From: Legionella jamestowniensis
Lineage (GTDB): Bacteria > Pseudomonadota > Gammaproteobacteria > Legionellales > Legionellaceae
Direction: 5' to 3'
NCBI RefSeq assembly: GCF_001467745.1
Contig: NZ_LNYG01000012.1
Span: 27,344 to 80,985 of the forward strand
DNA: 53,642 nucleotides
Shown one piece after another: positions 273-10,618 of the stretch; the first letter of the stretch is position 1, and the number at the start of each line of letters is the position of its first letter. A program made the translations under genes and the position numbers. The notes under the pieces were generated by a model. It saw nothing but the letters and a program-made list of their open reading frames with translations, did not search any database and was not told the origin of the DNA.

Positions 273-1895
273 ATGAATTCCAATAAAACCCTAAATGTTA
301 AAGCGACTGGGATTATCGCACTTGCAGTGATGTTTAGTCGCGTATTAGGTCTTATCCGGGAAGTCTTATTTAATACCTTATTTGGCACCGCTTCGATGGG
401 GATTTTTCTGATTTCATTTCGAGCGCCCAACCTATTAAGAGATCTTTTTGCAGAAGGGGCATTATCAGTTTCTTTCATCACAATTTTTTCTAAAAAAATA
501 GAAACAGAAGGTGATGACTCTGCGTGGAGACTGGCTGCTAAAATGCTCACGTTAACCAGCGTCGTAATGAGTATAATATCCCTAATTGGAATTATTTTTG
601 CTAAATATATAATCCATGCTTTAGCACCAGGCTTTTCAATAGAAGATATTGGTATAACTATCCTTCTCACTCAAATAATGTATCCTTTTATTTTGTTGGT
701 TTCTCTTGCCGCTATCATAATGGGGATTTTAAATTCCAAGAATGTCTTCGGTATACCCTCACTTGCTTCAAGCTTTTTTAATATTGGCTCAATTTTTGGT
801 GGTGTTTTTTGTGGCTGGTTAATTGACCCTGCATTCGGTGAGCGAGCATTGACTGGTTTAGCTATTGGAACAATGGTGGGTGGACTTTTACAACTTATCA
901 TACAATTTCCTAGCTTATGGAGAGTTGGCTTTCGTTTTAAACCAGATTTCAAATGGAACGATCCAGGGATCCGTAGTATCTTGATCTTAACTTTTCCTGC
1001 AATCATTGCTGCTAGTTCAGTACAATTCAATGTATTTATCAATTCAGCATTTGCTTCCTATCTTGGAAAAGAGGCCGTCACATGGCTTAACAGTGCATTC
1101 AGACTAATGCAGTTTCCTCTTGGCGCATTGGGGGTAGCTATTGCCACGATCACCCTACCTGTAATTTCACGTATTGCAGCAAGTACCAGCCAAACTCAAT
1201 TTGGACCAACATTAGGTCGCTCAATGCGCCTAGCCATATTTCTAACCATGCCAGCAGCAATTGGTCTTTGGTTTTTTGCTGAACCAATCATTTGCTTAAT
1301 CTATGAGCATGGTAAATTTCACTCGGCCGACACATTACAAACTGCTTATGCTTTAAAGTTTTATGCACTTGGTTTGATCAGCTATGCTTGCATCAAAATA
1401 TTATCCCCAGCCTTTTATGCTATTAATAAGAAATGGACACCCATGATGGTTAGCTTTTCTTCCATTGGTCTGAATATTTTCTTGAATTATTTTTTAATTT
1501 TTAAATTAGCTTTGGGACATGGAGGATTGGCGCTGTCAACGTCTATTTCAGCAACAAGTAATTTTTTAATTTTGTATATACTGATGAATCATTTGCATAA
1601 CCTGCAGACTATGTATTTTATAAGCACATTTCTTCGTTGTACTTTAGCATCAGGTCTTCTAGGATTAATTTGTTGGATAATATCATCTCACTTTAGTAAC
1701 TTCCTTTATCATCCTTCACTATTAATAAGCAGTATCTCCATAATTACTGCTATTTTTTTGGCTGGTTTAATATATTTATTGGCTTGTTTACTCCTTAAGA
1801 TAGAGATAGCAAGAAGTATGCTATTAAATTTTCAAGAAAAACTAGAAAAATTTGCGCATGGAAGTGAGAGCCATAGTCGTCAAAAAATTAACTAA
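273..1895 (+). CDS. murJ: MurJ/MviN-family lipid II flippase (probably an accessory copy)
   Basis: The 540-residue protein is almost entirely hydrophobic, consistent with about 14 membrane segments. It carries the MurJ hallmark near residues 40-65 (SFRAPNLLRDLFAEGALSVSF). MurJ proteins of the MVF/MOP superfamily flip lipid II across the inner membrane for peptidoglycan synthesis. The N-terminal reading (VMFSRVLGLIREVLFNTLFG) and the LLRDLFAEGALS form look closer to copies I recall from delta-proteobacteria and Acidobacteria than to the usual gamma-proteobacterial chromosomal MurJ. The surroundings are accessory, so I infer a second, acquired copy. The stop codon overlaps the stop of the convergent downstream gene by 4 nt. 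The family call is firm; paralogue status is inference. Confidence 0.9.
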   Translation: MNSNKTLNVKATGIIALAVMFSRVLGLIREVLFNTLFGTASMGIFLISFRAPNLLRDLFAEGALSVSFITIFSKKIETEGDDSAWRLAAKMLTLTSVVMSIISLIGIIFAKYIIHALAPGFSIEDIGITILLTQIMYPFILLVSLAAIIMGILNSKNVFGIPSLASSFFNIGSIFGGVFCGWLIDPAFGERALTGLAIGTMVGGLLQLIIQFPSLWRVGFRFKPDFKWNDPGIRSILILTFPAIIAASSVQFNVFINSAFASYLGKEAVTWLNSAFRLMQFPLGALGVAIATITLPVISRIAASTSQTQFGPTLGRSMRLAIFLTMPAAIGLWFFAEPIICLIYEHGKFHSADTLQTAYALKFYALGLISYACIKILSPAFYAINKKWTPMMVSFSSIGLNIFLNYFLIFKLALGHGGLALSTSISATSNFLILYILMNHLHNLQTMYFISTFLRCTLASGLLGLICWIISSHFSNFLYHPSLLISSISIITAIFLAGLIYLLACLLLKIEIARSMLLNFQEKLEKFAHGSESHSRQKIN

Positions 1896-2326
1896 TCTCT
1901 GATGCCAAACCATCTAATAAGTGTCTTTTCACCAAGATGGTCATAAATATAAGATAAATAATATGTTAGATGAGTGGTTAATTGTTCTTGTGAGGGAGCT
2001 ATCTCATTGCTAAAAGGGGTATGGTGAATATATTTTTTAAAGTAAAAATTACAAAAATCCATATAACCTTTTGTAAATAATAGAAATGTATGCCACATAT
2101 CATCAATTTCTTTCATCTCATGATGAATAACACATTGGAAATTTAATTCTTCTTGTTCAGGGTTAGTCATTTGATCATACTTATGTTTATTGCATAGCCA
2201 TAAAAATTTTAAAAGCTCAGTAAAAGCCTCTTCTGGGCCAAGAGTATTATCAGGATATTCTTTTTTATAACGATTAATCACATCTGAATTTTGATATTGT
2301 AAAAGCTGGCTAAGTGGAACTATCAT
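1892..2326 (-). CDS. GRDP-like (glycine-rich-domain-protein-like) protein, 144 aa
   Basis: The central motif EIDDMWHTFLLFTKGYMDFC followed by an HHTP segment matches the conserved core of GRDP-like proteins (PF07173 type: D-x-x-W-H-x-H/F-L-L-x-T-x-x-Y-x-x-F-C ... HH). That core is probably a small helical, possibly metal-binding unit; no reaction is established that I know of. There is no signal peptide or membrane segment, so it should be cytosolic. A GATAGG ribosome-binding-like site lies 7-8 nt before the ATG. It is 74 nt downstream of the Cys-rich peptide gene on the same strand, separated by a perfect palindrome, which suggests one operon with an attenuating or RNA-stabilising hairpin. 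Its stop overlaps the stop of murJ. Confidence 0.65.
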   Translation of the reverse strand: MIVPLSQLLQYQNSDVINRYKKEYPDNTLGPEEAFTELLKFLWLCNKHKYDQMTNPEQEELNFQCVIHHEMKEIDDMWHTFLLFTKGYMDFCNFYFKKYIHHTPFSNEIAPSQEQLTTHLTYYLSYIYDHLGEKTLIRWFGIRD

Positions 2327-2353
2327 TTTTTTACCTATCTGTAAATTTGAGAT

Positions 2354-2381
2354 AAGTAGTTAAGAGTACTCTTAACTACTT
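2354..2381. terminator. Perfect 28-bp palindrome between the peptide and GRDP-like genes
   Basis: The two 14-nt halves (AAGTAGTTAAGAGT and its exact complement) meet with no spacer, so the transcript from the minus strand would fold into a 12-13 bp hairpin just after the peptide stop codon. No T-run follows on the minus strand, so it is more likely an attenuator, a 3'-end-protecting hairpin or a protein site than a simple terminator. Confidence 0.55.
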
Positions 2382-2400
2382 TGAAAAATTGCTCAAATGC

Positions 2401-2523
2401 TCACACACCACATTGGCCTGCGCAAGGGACAGGATGACAGCCATGTTTGCATTGCGCGCACTTTGAGTTCGCATTTTGCTGAATTTTTATTTCAATAATT
2501 TTTTTTATTAATTGGGATTTCAT
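2401..2523 (-). CDS. Small Cys/His-rich peptide, 40 aa (candidate peptide precursor)
   Basis: The frame starts with ATG at 2523 and stops with TGA at 2401-2403. The first 20 residues are Lys/Ile-rich (MKSQLIKKIIEIKIQQNANS), like a leader. The last 20 contain five Cys and two His in CAQCKHGCHPVPCAGQC. AGAGG sits 6 nt before the ATG, a strong ribosome binding site that argues for real translation. The layout (Lys-rich front, Cys-rich core, hairpin, second gene, divergent ABC exporter) resembles a ribosomally made peptide natural product, or alternatively a small metal-binding peptide. I know no named family for it and see no classical modifying enzyme next to it. Confidence 0.6.
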   Translation of the reverse strand: MKSQLIKKIIEIKIQQNANSKCAQCKHGCHPVPCAGQCGV

Positions 2524-2576
2524 ATTAACCTCTTAGTTGTTATTTGAGAAAAATCTACATCATTTCTATATAAAAC

Positions 2577-2652
2577 GAAACGTGTTATTATTACAACATA
2601 TCGTTTCAATCACGGCAAACATTTTAAATGTTTCGTACGCTATGATCGAAAC
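2577..2652. promoter_or_regulatory. Two consecutive inverted repeats between the peptide operon and the ABC exporter gene
   Basis: GAAACG (2577-2582) pairs with CGTTTC (2602-2607), and GTTTCG (2630-2635) pairs with CGAAAC (2647-2652). Four copies of the same hexamer in alternating orientation in the divergent promoter region look like operator sites for one regulator controlling both directions. The regulator is not identified. Confidence 0.4.
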
Positions 2653-2682
2653 TTATAAAATAACTTACCAATTAACTTAAAA

Positions 2683-4473
2683 ATGAATGCCAAAAAAACC
2701 TCTTTAACTCATTTCATTCTTTCCACAGTGTGGCCTTATAAAATTTGGATCCCTATCATAGCCTTAGCAGGATTGATTTGGGCGTCCCTCAATACCTGCA
2801 TACCTTATGTACTTAAACTTATTATTGATAAAGTTTTGGTTTTTCAAGGACATAAAGCCCAATTACCTAAAACTTTACAATCATATTTCTTTAGTTATAT
2901 TGCACTTTGGATAGGACTTTGTGCCAGTATACGTCTTTTAGATTGGGCAAAGATGAAGTTTTTTCCTAGCGTGCGTGAAAATGTAATCAAAGAAATGTTC
3001 AATTATCTGAGTCAACATTCACACCAGTACTTTCAAAATAATTTTACTGGGAGTTTAATTAATAAAATTAATGATATGCAAAAAGGAATCATTGGCATTC
3101 TTTCTATAGTGGATGAGCTTTACGTTCAGTTGCTAGTCATATTCATGGCTATTATCACCATGCTATTTGTTCACCCAATTTTTGCAGCCATTCTATTTGG
3201 CTGGATTGTTTCTTTCCTATTCATCACCATGTTATTTTTGAAACCGATTCAAAGGCTTTCGCATGCTCTTTCAGAAAGTGTAACAACGTTAGTTGGTAAA
3301 AAAGTTGATAGCATCAGCAATATCATTAATGTGATACTTTTTGCCAGACATAAAAAGGAAAATCACTACATTCATCAAAGCATTCTCGATACGGTAGCTA
3401 AAGACCGTGCCATGCAAGCTAAGGTTATCAAAATGCGCCTATTTTGGGATTTTAGCATTTTAATTTTTACGGGATTAAATATTTATATTTTGCTTCTCAT
3501 GTACAGTAAGGATCTTATTACTATTGGAGATTTTGCTTTTGTTATCAGTGTATCCATTAGTATCTTATGGAATTTATGGTTTATCGCGGGGCAAGTTGTA
3601 ATTTTTTCTGAACAAGTAGGTAATTGTAAGCAAGCTTTATCGATTCTAGGTAAATCACACGATATCGTCGATGCGAAGGATGCAAAGCCACTGCTGGTAA
3701 CTCGAGGCAAAATTGAATTTAAAGAAGTGACATTTCATTATAATGAAGGTACTTATCTGTTCAAGAATAAAAATATCATTATTTTACCTGGTCAAAAAGT
3801 AGGTCTTGTAGGATTTTCTGGAAGCGGAAAGAGTACCTTTGTTAATCTGATTTTGCGTCTTTTTGATGTTGAATCAGGCACAATTAAAATTGATGATCAA
3901 AGCATTAAAAACGTGACCCAACAATCACTAAGGGAACAAATAGCTCTCATCCCGCAGGACATAACCCTATTTCATCGTACGTTAATGGAGAATATACGCT
4001 TTGGTGACATGAATGCAAAAGATGAAGAAGTGATTGCCATCTCTAAGAAAGCCCATTGCCATGAATTTATCAGTCAACTTAAAGAAGGTTATCAAACAGT
4101 GGTCGGTGAGCGTGGTATTAAACTATCAGGTGGCCAGCGCCAACGAATTGCTATTGCGAGAGCAATGCTCAAAAATGCCCCGATTCTAATTTTGGATGAG
4201 GCAACCTCTGCATTGGATTCCCTTACTGAACAATATATTCAAGAAGCTTTAGATGAAATGATGCATAACAAAACCACTATTGTTATTGCTCATCGTTTAG
4301 CAACGCTATCAAAAATGGATAGAATATTAGTATTTGACAAAGGGAAAATTATTGAAGATGACTCTCATGAAGCGCTATTGAGGCTTGATGGTCATTATGC
4401 AAGGTTGTGGCAAATGCAAGCAGGTGGATTTTTGCCTAAAATTGCGAGTGACTGTAATCACAATTTGGCCTAG
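2683..4473 (+). CDS. ABC exporter, fused membrane and ATPase domains, 3' end replaced by a transposon
   Basis: The 596-residue half-transporter has six membrane helices in residues 1-310 followed by a nucleotide-binding domain with Walker A GFSGSGKST, Q-loop IPQDITLF, signature LSGGQRQR, Walker B LILDEATSALDS and switch His in VIAHRLAT. It works as a dimer in the inner membrane, exporting a lipid, drug or peptide; it lacks an N-terminal C39 peptidase domain. It diverges from the Cys-rich peptide operon, making that peptide a candidate substrate (inference). The last codons (TTG GCC TAG) lie in the transposon's left terminal repeat: joining 4466 to 11371 restores a frame ending at 11416 that is about 13 residues longer. 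The tail lies beyond the H-loop, so activity may survive. Confidence 0.88.
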   Translation: MNAKKTSLTHFILSTVWPYKIWIPIIALAGLIWASLNTCIPYVLKLIIDKVLVFQGHKAQLPKTLQSYFFSYIALWIGLCASIRLLDWAKMKFFPSVRENVIKEMFNYLSQHSHQYFQNNFTGSLINKINDMQKGIIGILSIVDELYVQLLVIFMAIITMLFVHPIFAAILFGWIVSFLFITMLFLKPIQRLSHALSESVTTLVGKKVDSISNIINVILFARHKKENHYIHQSILDTVAKDRAMQAKVIKMRLFWDFSILIFTGLNIYILLLMYSKDLITIGDFAFVISVSISILWNLWFIAGQVVIFSEQVGNCKQALSILGKSHDIVDAKDAKPLLVTRGKIEFKEVTFHYNEGTYLFKNKNIIILPGQKVGLVGFSGSGKSTFVNLILRLFDVESGTIKIDDQSIKNVTQQSLREQIALIPQDITLFHRTLMENIRFGDMNAKDEEVIAISKKAHCHEFISQLKEGYQTVVGERGIKLSGGQRQRIAIARAMLKNAPILILDEATSALDSLTEQYIQEALDEMMHNKTTIVIAHRLATLSKMDRILVFDKGKIIEDDSHEALLRLDGHYARLWQMQAGGFLPKIASDCNHNLA

Positions 4474-4504
4474 CGCTCCGGAACTTGCGCCCTGACGCAA
4501 AAAT
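4467..4504 (+). repeat. Left terminal inverted repeat of the Tn3-family element
   Basis: It begins GGCCTAGCGCTCCGG and ends with GACGCAAAAAT. It is 38 bp and identical in inverted orientation to 11328-11365. AATTT at 4462-4466 is the left target duplication. The GGCCTAG end supplies the premature stop of the ABC exporter gene. Confidence 0.95.
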
Positions 4505-4516
4505 ACTTATCTCATA

Positions 4517-5074
4517 CTACTGAACAGCCTTCCTGATTTTTTGCTCCATTTCAGAAGTTATCTCAGTTGATCGAGGAGGAAGCTTTGTTGTCCCACGCAA
4601 GCCATTTTGTTCAATATCTTTAATAAGCAGATCCATCACGGCTATTTCGCGGACTTGAGCCTCTATTATCTGATCTGCCAATTTACGAACACGAGGGTCT
4701 TTAATTGTTGCTTTTCTGGAGTTATTTATAGCAATGGAGTGATGAGGGATCATTGATTTCATGAAGCTAATATCAGTAATAACGAACTGCCCTCGATTAA
4801 TCACTAATAAAATAACCCCCATTATTGCCGCGATGCTGAGAATACTAACTTTAATTACTATTCCTTCATACATAGACCACATAAACCCTAGCATTACAAT
4901 ACTCATAACGCATCCCATTATCAAGGAAGCAATCAGCCGGTTTAGACTAAACATGGCATGGTCAAACGAATAAACAAGCTGGTACATCAAAAAAAACATA
5001 ATAAAAGTAGAGACTGTAATCATCGCAACAAATCGTCCCCAACTCATACTTCCTCTTTGCTTTTGCTTATCCAT
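4517..5074 (-). CDS. DUF305 membrane protein, probable copper-resistance accessory
   Basis: Three membrane segments in roughly residues 10-100 are followed by an outward-facing DUF305 region with the family motif [12 protein letters not shown], a helical dimetal-ferritin-like fold often found with copper or silver resistance genes. AGGAG lies 6 nt before the ATG at 5074; a GTG two codons upstream is too close to that site. The gene lies 56 nt downstream of the CopA-CopB fusion on the same strand, so the two are likely co-transcribed and act in periplasmic copper handling. Confidence 0.75.
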
Positions 5075-5130
5075 GTTCACTCCTTTTTAAACATCACCCC
5101 TGATTTAAAAGATCGAAAATCTGTATCGGG

Positions 5131-7527
5131 TTAAATAATAAAATTTAAGCCAAAAAAAAGCGAGTTTTCGACTACTGCTTCTCCATTGCTTCGCCTGATA
5201 TTTTTTAAGATACTGTGATATTTGGTATGTTCGTATTCTATAAAGGCAGAAATGCCTGGTGTAATTCTATAGTTTGGACGAATCACATATTGCGTCTCAT
5301 TAAGACCACTACCAATTTCATCTTCTGTAATAGTTTTCGTTGCAGCAATAGCTCTAAAAAGGGTCCCTAAAAATAAATTATTGGTTAATTGAGTATTACG
5401 ACCAAATTCAATATCTGCTTTAAAACTTTCTTTATGATAATAGAACCTGGAATTGTTAGTGATAAAATAATACATTAGTCCTTCAAAACCGATCCCAGGC
5501 TGCCAGTAAGGTGTTTTTGATGGGCGATAAAAATAATTTGCACCACCTTTTATCATCCAAAATTGGCTGATTTGTCGCCAATAGAATACATCAATATCCG
5601 CGTTGGAAATATTTCCCTTTTCCATTTCAGCATCATTAATATATAGCTGTAATTTGTTAAAATCAGGGCCATATAATCCATAATAAGTCAGGGTTTGTCG
5701 ATTTTTGGAGAAATCACCTCCGAATTCAATAAAAGATGCTGCAAAAAATTTATTGGGTGTGTGCACAGGATGCTCTACCATCGGCAACGAAATAGGACGT
5801 AGTTCATCTACTCGAACAATTGGCCGGTTATAGTAGGATGTATGTTTAATGATATTTTTTGGCGGTTCTTTACCTTTCGCAATGTCAATAATAGAAGCAT
5901 ATTGAAATGTTCTGGCAAGACCAGAAGCCATGTGATTTAGCATATGACAATGGAAAAACCACTGGCCACTAGCATCGGTATCTAAATCAGCTGTAACTTC
6001 ACTGCCCGGAGGGATATCAATAGTATGTAGCAAAGGATCGTGGTTTCCGTGACCGTTTCTTAGAATCAACCAGTGACCATGCAAGTGCATAGGATGATGC
6101 ATCATGGAATTATTAATAAAAACTAATCGATATCGTTTTGCAGGCAATAGTTTAATGGGTTTAGCGTTGTATTCAGGAACACCATTAATAAACCATATAA
6201 AGCGATCCATGAAGCCGAACAATTGTAGATTAATCGTTTTATAGATGGGCTTTTTAGGATTATTGGTTTCATATTTTGCTCTTAAATGCTGGTATTTCGT
6301 ACCTATTGTGACAGGTTTTTTTTGTTTATTGTGATGTTTTGCTTGCGTGTGGCTTTCGGTTGATATATTGCCTGTCTCAATCGTATTGATATGCGGCTGA
6401 TGGTGAAGTTCACTCTGCATTCCCATGTGCGCCATCGGCTTTAAACCGCGTTTTTTTTCATTTTTCATTTTGCCACGAGTGGTAGGTTTTGGATCTGGAA
6501 AAGGCATAACCTCCTTATAAAGGACGGGCTGATCTGCGTTTGTAATTAAAGCTCCCAGTGCTTTTCCAACTTTATCAAAAGATTCTGCATAAATGATGTA
6601 GGGCTTGTTTTGTTCAATTTTTATTAATACATCATTCGTTTCTCCAGGGCCGATAAAAAAATCTTTTACCGGATAAGGTATAACATCATTACCTTGCACA
6701 TGTACCATCTTCATGGTAACACCAGGTATTTTGACGCGAAAAAAAGTATTAGCGCCGGCTCCTATAAAACGCAGACGTACTACGTCACCCACCTTAACTT
6801 GACGTGTCCATGGGCGAGAGGTTGGATGACCATTCATCAAAAAAGTATCATAAGCAACGTCGCTTAGATCAAAGATGCCCATACGCATGTACTGCATCAT
6901 TTTATAATCCATCCATATTTTTTTACCCTCTTCTTTTGAGGCTTTACTGTAGCTTTGAATAAATTGTTGAAGTGATGGTTGCAAAGGAAATCTTGCACCA
7001 TAATATTCACCTGTTTTTTTTAAATTGGCTTGGATATGATCGGCTTTGGTATTTTTCCAGTCAGATAAAACTATTTCAAAGTCCTTATTGTATTTAAAAG
7101 CAGGTGGTGATTTTGGTTCGATAATATAAGCGCCATATAAGCCTTCTTGCTCCTGAAGACCTGCATGCGAGTGATACCAATAGGTACCAGATTGATGCAG
7201 GGTATAATGGTATTTAAAAGTAGCGCCTGGAGGAATACCTTTTTGTGTGATGTTCATGACACCATCCATTTGCCAAGGGAGAATAATCCCATGCCAATGA
7301 ATGGCAGCTTCTTTATCTAAATGATTATGAACATTTATAGTGACCTCATCCCCTTCTTTAAATCGAAGCGTTGGAGCTGGAATCTGATGATTGATAGTAA
7401 TTGCTCGTGCAGGGTATCCAGTAAAATTAAAGGTATCATAAGCAACAGTTAAATCGATGATATGATGTTTTGCCCATACATTTGCAGCGCAAATCATTAA
7501 AATTAATGGTAAATATCCTTTGTTCAT
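5131..7527 (-). CDS. copA: CopA-CopB fusion: multicopper oxidase joined to a CopB outer-membrane domain
   Basis: The 798-residue protein starts with a Sec-type signal (MNKGYLPLILMICAANVWA) that lacks the twin arginine usual in CopA. Residues 25-550 form three cupredoxin domains with all four copper motifs: HWHG, YWYHSHAG, HHPMHLHGH and HCHMLNHM. The type-1 axial position is Leu (HMASGL) where CopA usually has Met, which in other multicopper oxidases goes with higher redox potential. A Met/His-rich insert lies near residues 365-400. Residues from about 570 on resemble CopB (PF05275 type), with alternating beta-strand pattern ending in aromatic and hydrophobic residues. CopA normally oxidises or sequesters periplasmic Cu(I), and CopB is a separate outer-membrane protein; here one chain carries both. 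Confidence 0.85.
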   Translation of the reverse strand: MNKGYLPLILMICAANVWAKHHIIDLTVAYDTFNFTGYPARAITINHQIPAPTLRFKEGDEVTINVHNHLDKEAAIHWHGIILPWQMDGVMNITQKGIPPGATFKYHYTLHQSGTYWYHSHAGLQEQEGLYGAYIIEPKSPPAFKYNKDFEIVLSDWKNTKADHIQANLKKTGEYYGARFPLQPSLQQFIQSYSKASKEEGKKIWMDYKMMQYMRMGIFDLSDVAYDTFLMNGHPTSRPWTRQVKVGDVVRLRFIGAGANTFFRVKIPGVTMKMVHVQGNDVIPYPVKDFFIGPGETNDVLIKIEQNKPYIIYAESFDKVGKALGALITNADQPVLYKEVMPFPDPKPTTRGKMKNEKKRGLKPMAHMGMQSELHHQPHINTIETGNISTESHTQAKHHNKQKKPVTIGTKYQHLRAKYETNNPKKPIYKTINLQLFGFMDRFIWFINGVPEYNAKPIKLLPAKRYRLVFINNSMMHHPMHLHGHWLILRNGHGNHDPLLHTIDIPPGSEVTADLDTDASGQWFFHCHMLNHMASGLARTFQYASIIDIAKGKEPPKNIIKHTSYYNRPIVRVDELRPISLPMVEHPVHTPNKFFAASFIEFGGDFSKNRQTLTYYGLYGPDFNKLQLYINDAEMEKGNISNADIDVFYWRQISQFWMIKGGANYFYRPSKTPYWQPGIGFEGLMYYFITNNSRFYYHKESFKADIEFGRNTQLTNNLFLGTLFRAIAATKTITEDEIGSGLNETQYVIRPNYRITPGISAFIEYEHTKYHSILKNIRRSNGEAVVENSLFFGLNFII

Positions 7528-7708: not shown

Positions 7709-10618
7709 ATGAGTGTGATCGATTTAACAATAAATGAATTTGATTTAACCCAAGAAGAAATTGGCTTTATAAGGACAAGGCATTCAAGTAGGCAATTAGC
7801 ATTCGCTTTGCTATTTAAATACTACCAAAAAAGTCATCAATTCATAAGTGACCTAACAAAATTACCTGCTTATCTTATCAAGCAAGTTGCAAGCCAACTT
7901 AATATTCCGCCTGTTATTTGTGAAGTGCCTTCAAGAACATATGACAATTATATCTCACTGATTAGAAAATATTTTAATACTTCTTTCTCTAAAAAAACGC
8001 ATTATAAAGAGCTTGAGGTATGGATAAAAAACGAACTACTACCCAATCATTATTTAGCTGACGAAGAAATCAAAAATCAGGCGATTCAGTATTTAAAAGA
8101 AAGAGGTATTGAGTTATTTAAAGAAAAAACGATGGCAAGAATTATTCTTGATGCTAGCAACGCGTTTGAGAATGAATTATTCGAAAAACTAAAAAACACA
8201 TTGTCCCCAGAAGATGAGGCACAGTTAAATGGTTTGTTATTGCTTTATAAAGAAGGCTTGTCTTATTTAGGTTGGATAAATAAAGAAATTAACAACCCAT
8301 CACTTGATTCTATATTGAGTTTAATGGAACAGCTATCCATTTTGAACCGATTTAATTTTGATTTAGTAGCCATTCACACCATTCCAAGAAAAAGAATCGT
8401 GCATTATTCAGAAGCGTTTACACGTTTAAACCCTAGTGATTTAAAACAAATGATTGATAATAAGCGATGCGCTCATTTACTTATGTATTGCCACACAAGA
8501 AAAGAAGAGATTATCGATAAAACAATCGACATGTTTAACCGCATTATCCGCAACGTCATTCATAAATCAGAAAGGCGTGTGGTTAAAAAACTTATTAATG
8601 ATGTAAAAAAAGTCTACGGTAAAGATACGATCTTGTTTAATATAGCTGAGATAAGTTTAGAACAGCCAGATGGAACAATAAGAGATAAAATTTTTCCTAT
8701 TATTGGCCAGGATAAGTTAAAAAATATCATCGATGAGTATAAGAAAAGAGGACCAAAGTACCAGAGCCTTTTGCATCAACAAATTAGAAGTTCTTATGCC
8801 AGTCATTACCGACGAATGATCCAACCATTATTAGAAAATGTAATTTTTTGTTCTAATAACTCCGAGTATCAGCCAATACTGGATGCATTAGCGCTGATTA
8901 AAAAATATTTCGATAGTAATAAAATTTATTTCCCAGACAATGAAGATGTCCCTATTGATTTCTTGCCTGATAAATGGAAAAAACGCATTGTTGATCCAGT
9001 AAGCGGTAAAATAAAGCGAATTTGTTATGAAGTGTATGTTTTAAAAAAACTTGCAGACAGGATTAGGTGTCGTGAAATAAGGGTTGAAGGCTCGTTTAAA
9101 CATCGAAATCCAGATGAAGATTTGCCGAATAATTTTGAAGAAAACAAAGAAGTGTATTTTGAGGATCTTTCCTTGCCTCTTGATAGTGATGTCTTTATTG
9201 AACAACTAAAGCAACGCCTGACAAGCGCATTAGCCTCTTTAAATGACAATATACCCAACAATACAAAAGTTCAAATTAGTTCCAAAAATGGAGGTCGTAT
9301 TATTGTAACACCCCTTACACCTCAAGCAGAGTCTAGTAGCATTGGAATTATAAAAAAACATTTACAGGAAAAATGGGAAGGAACCAATCTCATCGACATG
9401 ATTAAAGAAGTCGATTTGGAAAACCAATTTACCCGTGATTTTATTTCATATGGCCACAAAATCTATTTAAAACCTCATGAAATTTCCGAAAGAATCTTAC
9501 TTACTATTTATGGACTGGGAACAAACGTTGGGTTAAAACACATGTGTGCTGGAAACGGCCATGTTAGTGAGCATCAGCTTCGACACATTAAAAATTATTT
9601 TTTATCTACTGACAATTTAAAAAACGCTTTAAGCAAAGTAGCAAATGCATTATTTAAAGTCAGACTAGAAGAAATATGGGGTGGTATGCCTGTAGCTGTT
9701 GCCAGTGACTCAACTCAATTTTCCGCTTATTTTCAAAATTTGATATCAGAATACCACAATCGCTATGGGGGAAGAGGCGTGATGATTTACTGGCATGTTG
9801 AAAAAAATGCCTGCTGCATCCACTCACAATTAAAAAGCGTTTCAAGTTCTGAAGTTTCTGCCATGATTGAAGGTGTATTAAGACACTGCACCGAAATGTC
9901 GGTTCAAAAAAATTATGTTGATACTCATGGTCAAAGTGAAGTGGGATTTGCCTTTTCACACCTTTTAGGATTTTCTTTAATGCCACGACTTGCCAATTTG
10001 AATAAACAAAAGTTGGCACAATGTGAACTTGGAGATTATCAAAAATATACAAATCTACAAGCAGTGCTGACAGATACCATTAATTGGCAATTAATTAAAG
10101 AACAATACAGTCAAATTGTAAAATATACTGCTGCGATGAAGGCCGGTCACGCTGAGCCAGAGTCTATTCTCCGGCGTTTTAATCAAAACAATCTGAAACA
10201 TCCAACGTACATAGCATTATCACAGTTAGGTAAGGTATTAAAAACCATATTCATCTGCAACTACTTAATGCATGAATCCATCAGGCAGGAAATCCAAGAA
10301 GGATTAAATGTAGTTGAACTTTGGAATGGTGTCAGCAAATTTATTTTTTATGGCCGATCTGGTGAAATTTCCTCTAACCATAAGAAAGCACAAACCTTAT
10401 CTGTGTTGTCTTTACATCTTTTACAACTATCAATGGTGTATATCAATACCTTAATGATTCAGCGAATAATAGAAGAGTATGGGTTGCAAAATAAATTAAC
10501 TAAGGAGGATAAAAGGGCATTAACTCCTCTTATTTATGAGCATGTTAACCCTTATGGTTTATTCCCATTGAATTTATCAACACGGTTGCCCCATCTTCAC
10601 TATAAGGTGGCTGCATAA
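7709..10618 (+). CDS. tnpA: Tn3-family transposase TnpA
   Basis: The 969-residue length is typical for Tn3 TnpA. The DDE catalytic triad can be placed at Asp667 (VASDSTQF), Asp738 ([12 protein letters not shown]) and Glu870 (NVVELWNG), with the LLGF..MPRL segment between the second and third. It cuts and joins the 38-bp ends during replicative transposition. A GGTG site precedes the ATG. The stop and the tnpI start overlap as TAATG, indicating translational coupling. The frame is intact. Confidence 0.95.

Follow-up and report, generated by a model that had tools for sequence, protein, structure and literature searches.

The window analysed in this study, a stretch of 53,642 nucleotides from the Legionella jamestowniensis contig NZ_LNYG01000012.1, contains close to its start a short gene for a cysteine-rich peptide, directly followed on the same strand by a gene for a small protein resembling the glycine-rich domain-containing proteins (GRDP). 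A preliminary description of this DNA, made from the sequence alone, had placed these two genes and the palindrome between them in a common peptide system with a divergent ABC exporter and an extra MurJ. The elements of the peptide-GRDP pair are the following (positions are those of the window):

2401 to 2523, minus strand: peptide gene, an open reading frame (ORF) for a precursor-like peptide of 40 amino acids (aa) with a Lys/Ile-rich front and a five-Cys end, CAQCKHGCHPVPCAGQC
2529 to 2533, minus strand: AGAGG, the ribosome binding site of the peptide gene, five bases 5' of its ATG, seen in the sequence
2354 to 2381, no strand: perfect 28-bp palindrome in the spacer between the peptide stop and the GRDP start, seen in the sequence
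1892 to 2326, minus strand: GRDP-like gene for an all-helical protein of 144 aa, based on the ORF, alignments and fold

The peptide ORF with its AGAGG site, as well as the perfect palindrome lying between two genes of the same strand, were confirmed as first described.

Within the genus, the peptide is present in two of the 22 genomes, the window's own included. In the sister species its 40 residues are identical, the DNA differing at seven places which are all silent, with no replacement. The DNA located 5' of the peptide is much less conserved between these two species than the spacer leading to the GRDP-like gene. In the order (Legionellales), 116 pairs of related peptides, which are not independent of each other, gave per-site ratios of replacement to silent change between 0 and 0.39. 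Judged from these comparisons of sequences, the peptide gene is under purifying selection.

The 52 peptides of the order that were compared by eye show a conserved front and a Cys end which differs between clades (for instance, MKEKIIKKIVQKKLLKKSRGWCGPGTCIGA, MKKQLVQQIVKAKIAKGMMRCKCCRYS, and MSKEEIICRLVRTITQHSLQKTCCR). Many of these ends hold just two or three Cys, for example GWCGPGTCIG and KTCCR. The end CGPGTC is found in free peptides of several species of the order, including L. bononiensis and L. quateirensis, and also as a fused tail in a genome of the same phylum (G662). The peptides tested matched no family of Pfam, NCBIfam, or PHROGs (best E 0.11 in the last). A short encoded precursor beside a partner gene, and a conserved recognition front followed by a variable core at the end, are both characteristic of ribosomally synthesized and post-translationally modified peptides (RiPPs), and both were found here.

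GRDP-like relatives were detected in 87 of the 143 genomes of the order. Seventy loci were taken and 67 were kept, namely those whose GRDP gene reached 125 aa and whose upstream DNA reached 150 nt. Two were left out for length (L097 at a contig end and L098 with a broken gene) and L111 for its short upstream DNA, whereas near-copies such as L005/L006 and L021/L022 are included in the 67. A peptide was counted when it had 20–80 aa, lay on the same strand, ended at most 220 nt before the GRDP start, and combined two Cys near its end with a hydrophobic and Lys/Arg front; this rule was fixed only after the upstream regions of the order loci had been inspected. Such a peptide lies directly upstream in 52 of the 67 loci (39/51 among close and 13/16 among distant relatives). 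In the control, the rule was satisfied before only one of 289 other ORFs of at least 120 aa, and this sole match precedes the GRDP gene of another lineage (L134). The control ORFs were taken in six frames from the loci up to L147, and some of them overlap, are not genes, or come from the same region twice. Five of the 12 close loci outside the rule (L014, L017, L030, L095, and L096) carry by eye a similar peptide with one or two Cys. The window genome itself contains a second pair, of the distant type (L112, G000:C1:152300-154500). It is highly probable that the peptide and the GRDP-like protein constitute one functional unit.

The search beyond the order revealed that the two partners may also be joined. 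A profile of 41 sequences matched in 31 of the 369 genomes of the class, three of them in the family, and a broader profile (A5) matched in 32 of the 397 genomes of the phylum, the window genome included. These matches, together with plasmid records, provided 67 GRDP domains, of which one (L121) belongs to the window's genus; hence, 66 were counted. In 38 of the 66 a Cys tail is carried on the domain itself and in 11 a Cys peptide is located upstream by rule, that is, 49 domains have a fused or an upstream partner. The background of the fused-tail rule was 12 of 192 other ORFs. Fused tails are of the kind GCGGGCGGD, CSSCGGGGD, and CKGCNGCAAGC, and free peptides of the kind CNGQCASGHC. Plasmid records from Pseudomonadota, Bacillota, Bacteroidota, and Cyanobacteriota contain fused or free Cys forms, and a fused tail was absent from both Actinomycetota proteins examined (L151 and L152).

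The tree of 102 domains requires a minimum of four changes between the fused and the split form, with rows of neither form set aside; this was a quick tree with 40 open forks and long branches (L122 and L162). The tree was made from 104 rows, two of them dropped for being shorter than 115 aa. In the domain set, 37 of the 68 rows of the order had been hand-picked for diversity, and a script had removed near-copies and rows with a mismatch in the motif or the HH (e.g., L172 and L173, both with Cys tails, and L152). Borosins, in which the enzyme is an unrelated methyltransferase, similarly have enzyme and substrate peptide both fused and as separate genes. The distribution of the pair, or of its fused version, in several bacterial phyla suggests an undescribed kind of peptide-processing or metal-handling unit. 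No description of a bacterial GRDP-peptide pair was found in the literature searched, subscription journals being mostly outside its coverage.

Two loci show further Cys-rich ends. L191 (G662:C1:645000-655000) has a couple of GRDP-like genes, separated by about 0.8 kb, with different Cys tails, CYGCDSSVERCPNNIC and SCGPGTCGASTNCQG. At L152, on a Streptomyces plasmid, a 178-aa protein (1792-2328) with the Cys-rich end STCRVCQSRGCM and no Pfam or NCBIfam match is encoded two genes before the GRDP-like gene.

The spacer between the two genes is predicted to fold as RNA with −17.4 kcal/mol, below all 200 shuffles (z −3.7). It is well kept in the sister species, where the palindrome has lost its outermost base pair. 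Among the 37 loci of the order with a spacer of at least 25 nt, the best stem scores at least 9 in 27 cases; control stretches of equal length reached this score in 4 of 36 cases 5' of the peptide and in 3 of 37 cases 3' of the GRDP gene. The stem sequences are mostly different between lineages, the hairpin being preserved more in its structure than in its sequence. The ten bases 3' of the stem show no long T run, and no known RNA family was detected at 1850-2750. The palindrome was also considered as a repeated operator and rejected: its 20-base core has one exact copy in the genome, and the next best has 3 mismatches, the same as the reversed control.

The same arrangement could be formed by a regulatory leader ORF, in which stalling or slowing of the ribosome at the Cys codons, or the peptide itself, alters the hairpin and the expression of the GRDP gene. 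Leader ORFs which respond to Cys or copper are examples of such regulation. The location of the peptide directly upstream, its Cys codons near the end, and the frequent spacer hairpin agree with this explanation, as does the distant type, where the stop of the peptide abuts or overlaps the start of the GRDP gene in 11 of the 13 loci. However, the front half is conserved as a protein, beyond the Cys codons alone, and the Cys stretch found at the GRDP C terminus in the 38 outside domains is impossible as a leader ORF. In addition, in one relative (G753) a single strand carries two peptides, each with a ...DNISGG leader and an end rich in Cys, then two GRDP-like genes, and then HlyD together with an ABC exporter whose C39 peptidase domain was matched at a Pfam E of 1.5e-38. 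Such GG-leader peptides beside a C39 exporter resemble export substrates. A leader ORF is considered unlikely.

The AlphaFold2 model of the GRDP-like protein is confident and helical (pLDDT 89, pTM 0.85), on an alignment of five sequences which include two near-identical pairs. Against the PDB there was no match by sequence, and the best by fold had an E of 2.3. The fold search in viral models returned one clear match, a "glycine-rich domain-containing protein-like" protein of Harvfovirus (probability 1.00, TM 0.69/0.72, 23% identity, E 0.014). The name GRDP-like, given in the preliminary description, is supported by the fold, but PF07173 of Pfam leaves the window protein unlisted even at a limit of E 10; two other members are listed by it at E 8e-4 and 2e-3, below the cut-off. 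Eukaryotic and viral GRDP proteins (PF07173; e.g., AtGRDP2 of plants) have a GRDP domain with a Gly-rich tail, and those of plants carry further domains. Their likeness to the window protein lies in the fold match with the giant-virus model, and a difference is the failure of PF07173. No confirmed relative was found in viral contigs, and the single match from phage records is weak (E 1e-7) and lies on a faecal contig that is unverified.

Residues D75, W78, H79, Y88, and H102 are invariant in both alignments. In 24 diverse members, D75, W78, H79, T85, Y88, and H102 are invariant, and H101 is nearly so. D75 and H79 are placed four residues apart on one helix of the model. The D-x-x-W-H motif with the further His residues may form a metal site.

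The observed coding, conservation, pairing, fusion, hairpin, and fold class are best explained by a RiPP-like cassette whose GRDP-like partner modifies the peptide's Cys end or loads it with metal, a reading to which we assign a probability of about 0.6. In detail, the peptide would be translated from its own start site, its Lys/Ile-rich front serving as a recognition segment and its Cys-rich end as the part acted on. The GRDP-like partner, a small helical protein whose D-x-x-W-H and His residues probably bind a metal, would recognize the front and modify, oxidize, or load with metal the Cys end. In the fused relatives, the GRDP domain may act in cis on its own Cys tail, because there the Cys end is joined to the domain itself. 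Through RNA processing or partial termination, the hairpin between the genes would allow more peptide than partner to be made. As for the product, a Cys peptide which binds metal, copper being the first candidate, or which is exported is most likely.

Several observations weigh against this cassette. Fifteen of the 67 loci of the order do not satisfy the peptide rule, and four of them (L007, L008, L090, and L094) show no peptide by eye. Outside the order, 17 of the 66 GRDP domains have neither a fused tail nor an upstream peptide by rule. Some of the fused ends are doubtful: those of L138, L139, and L145 end in a zinc-ribbon-like CPNCGRR, and that of L141 is doubtful too. A separate count with another tail rule (three Cys) gave 16 of 29 GRDP proteins against 6 of 78 background ORFs; some upstream matches of that analysis in GC-rich genomes resembled chance ORFs and were left out of account. 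The spacer stem is absent from six KCC-type loci (L081, L083, L085-L087, and L089), and the abutting or overlapping genes of most distant-type loci, mentioned above, belong here as well. The examined flanks of the order loci show no recurrent family of metal, exporter, or receptor genes. The strong variation of the Cys end between lineages means that one common reaction is not certain.

The neighborhood of the pair in the window includes the following features:

2683 to 4473, plus strand: MsbA-like ABC exporter, divergent neighbor, without a C39 domain match
2577 to 2607, no strand: GAAACG/CGTTTC inverted pair in the divergent intergenic region, seen in the sequence
273 to 1895, plus strand: MurJ, second paralogue, convergent neighbor of the GRDP-like gene
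4517 to 5080: DUF305 gene with a weak CopM match, near the peptide-GRDP pair
5131 to 7527: ORF of 798 aa next to the DUF305 gene, combining a CopA-like multicopper oxidase, which scores below the NCBIfam cut-off, with a CopB domain

The end of the MurJ gene overlaps the end of the GRDP-like gene by four bases. Farther along the window, an ORF of 969 aa (7709-10618) resembles a Tn3-type transposase. The PADLOC models for anti-phage defence systems found no match among the six proteins scanned.

Within the best 20 ABC loci, the peptide, GRDP, or MurJ lies beside the ABC gene only in the window and in the sister species. The next 18, which are the best further ones of many ABC matches, have no tblastn match to the GRDP, peptide, or MurJ of the window in flanks of about 1.5 kb (shorter in three). 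The identity to the sister species is 79% for the ABC exporter, compared with 100% for the peptide, 92% for the GRDP, and 93% for MurJ. On these two grounds the exporter was rejected as a member of the unit, and it is probably merely a neighbor. Of the co-occurrence in other genomes that the preliminary description had set as its check, the part concerning the peptide and the GRDP-like gene holds, but the part concerning the exporter does not.

The GAAACG...CGTTTC pair occurs once in the window against an expectation of 0.01. The divergent layout, with the ABC gene facing the peptide across this pair, is as first reported. In the sister species, however, the arms have changed, and the pair was rejected as a conserved operator.

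The description of MurJ, a member of the MATE superfamily, as an extra copy proved correct, because the window genome holds two MurJ genes. The paralogue is found in 7 of 140 genomes, and in three of them (G000, G003, and G042) it stands beside the pair; in G042 the order is peptide-GRDP-MurJ on one strand. In the other four, no GRDP match was found within the stretches examined. This MurJ or the ABC gene lies in the examined stretch of 3 of the 75 GRDP loci of the order. In a genome outside the order (G270), a MurJ gene with 31% identity to that of the window is located about 1.1 kb downstream of a GRDP-like gene, and no peptide was found. A role of the MurJ flippase in export or immunity is possible.

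These results bear on the full model proposed earlier, that is, an exported antibacterial peptide with the divergent ABC protein as its exporter and the extra MurJ as its immunity. The real second MurJ, its location beside the pair in three genomes, and the G270 locus are compatible with it. On the contrary, the absence of the partner genes from all 18 further ABC loci, the MurJ paralogue occurring without the pair in four of its seven genomes, and the scarcity of either gene at the GRDP loci of the order make it very improbable. The more general claim of a natural-product or metal-peptide layout fared better: the peptide-GRDP unit is strongly supported and the layout fits some relatives with GG-leader and C39, TonB, or metal genes, but the ABC exporter of the window is probably not part of it.

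In Aureibacter, the GRDP-like gene follows the peptide MEKKETIIENLLAERKDLGLGHCSNCGHCSASF; genes of the CobN and ExbB types lie upstream of this pair, and a TonB receptor lies downstream. In G459, the peptide, GRDP-like, and ABC-2 genes adjoin a TonB receptor which is split over ORFs. The E. coli plasmid pHUSEC41-3 (L148; 7.9 kb, mobilizable) encodes a GRDP-like protein with a Cys tail, then an ABC transporter and a JmjC/cupin protein, as well as a DUF4440 gene, and GRDP-like matches are found in 25 E. coli plasmid records. The membrane protein beside the P. savastanoi pair is MOP-like by eye and has no Pfam or PDB match, and was therefore not used as evidence.

Some gene families stand repeatedly beside GRDP loci. 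In the distant type (L101-L115), the next gene on the same strand belongs to one family in 10 loci, and its member at L111 matches DotU (Pfam E 6e-40). In twenty loci (L013, L015, L017-L020, and others), the gene immediately downstream, on the opposite strand, is of a single family, whose member at L077 is an HxlR-type regulator. A methyltransferase-like gene, likewise on the opposite strand, is found upstream in 13 loci, and in 11 further ones, including L080 to L086, the downstream gene is of the LysR type.

The copper oxidase and DUF305 genes of the window, as well as the heavy-metal RND-like pump genes (named by eye) around the pair of L. parisiensis, point to a second alternative. The peptide could be a stand-alone binder of metal, similar to metallothionein, and the GRDP-like protein a separate metal store or sensor which does not act on the peptide. 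The Cys/His-rich end and the D/H conservation in the GRDP-like protein are in agreement with such roles. Nevertheless, many of the peptide ends have just two or three Cys, the Cys tails fused to the GRDP domain suggest direct contact, and the metal genes do not recur as neighbors. This alternative seems improbable, and a cassette in which the GRDP-like protein acts on the peptide is preferred.

The cassette shares features with known systems. No known maturase was present among the six window genes scanned, and no MNIO (DUF692) gene among the window genes 273-7527 or the scanned neighbors in relatives. Methanobactin operons consist of MbnA, MbnB/C, the MATE exporter MbnM, and the TonB transporter MbnT (PMC3621798). 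The likeness lies in a very short precursor followed by a partner gene and in the location of some members beside TonB receptors and of others beside MurJ; the difference is that no MNIO (MbnB) match was obtained in the scanned neighbors, the partner here being an unrelated small helical protein. TIGR04222 proteins have been proposed as MNIO substrates (PMC12452194). These proteins and the bufferins, RiPPs of the MNIO type, resemble the present forms in their Cys/Gly/Ser tails, and in Planktothrix a GRDP domain is fused before a TIGR04222 domain with a Cys tail. The GRDP-like domain, however, is not an MNIO, and the peptides of the order have mostly 25–45 aa and no long carrier domain. The cluster of G753, with its GG-leader Cys peptides, HlyD, and C39-ABC, is similar to the microcin clusters of the C39/double-glycine kind. 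No cluster of that kind is known to us to include a GRDP-like gene.

Tentatively, and with the odds rather against it, the GRDP-like domain may represent a new metal-dependent class of peptide processing which acts on Cys/Gly peptides in trans or in cis, with the GRDP proteins of plants, fungi, and giant viruses acting alike on their Gly-rich tails.

The pairing provides a functional lead, as partner of Cys peptides, for a widespread domain without an assigned role, and points to a large set of genes of mostly 25–45 aa which, where tested, have no Pfam, NCBIfam, or PHROGs family. Should the domain turn out to modify Cys, it would define a new class of RiPP maturase; should it load metal, the pair would be a new metal-peptide system.

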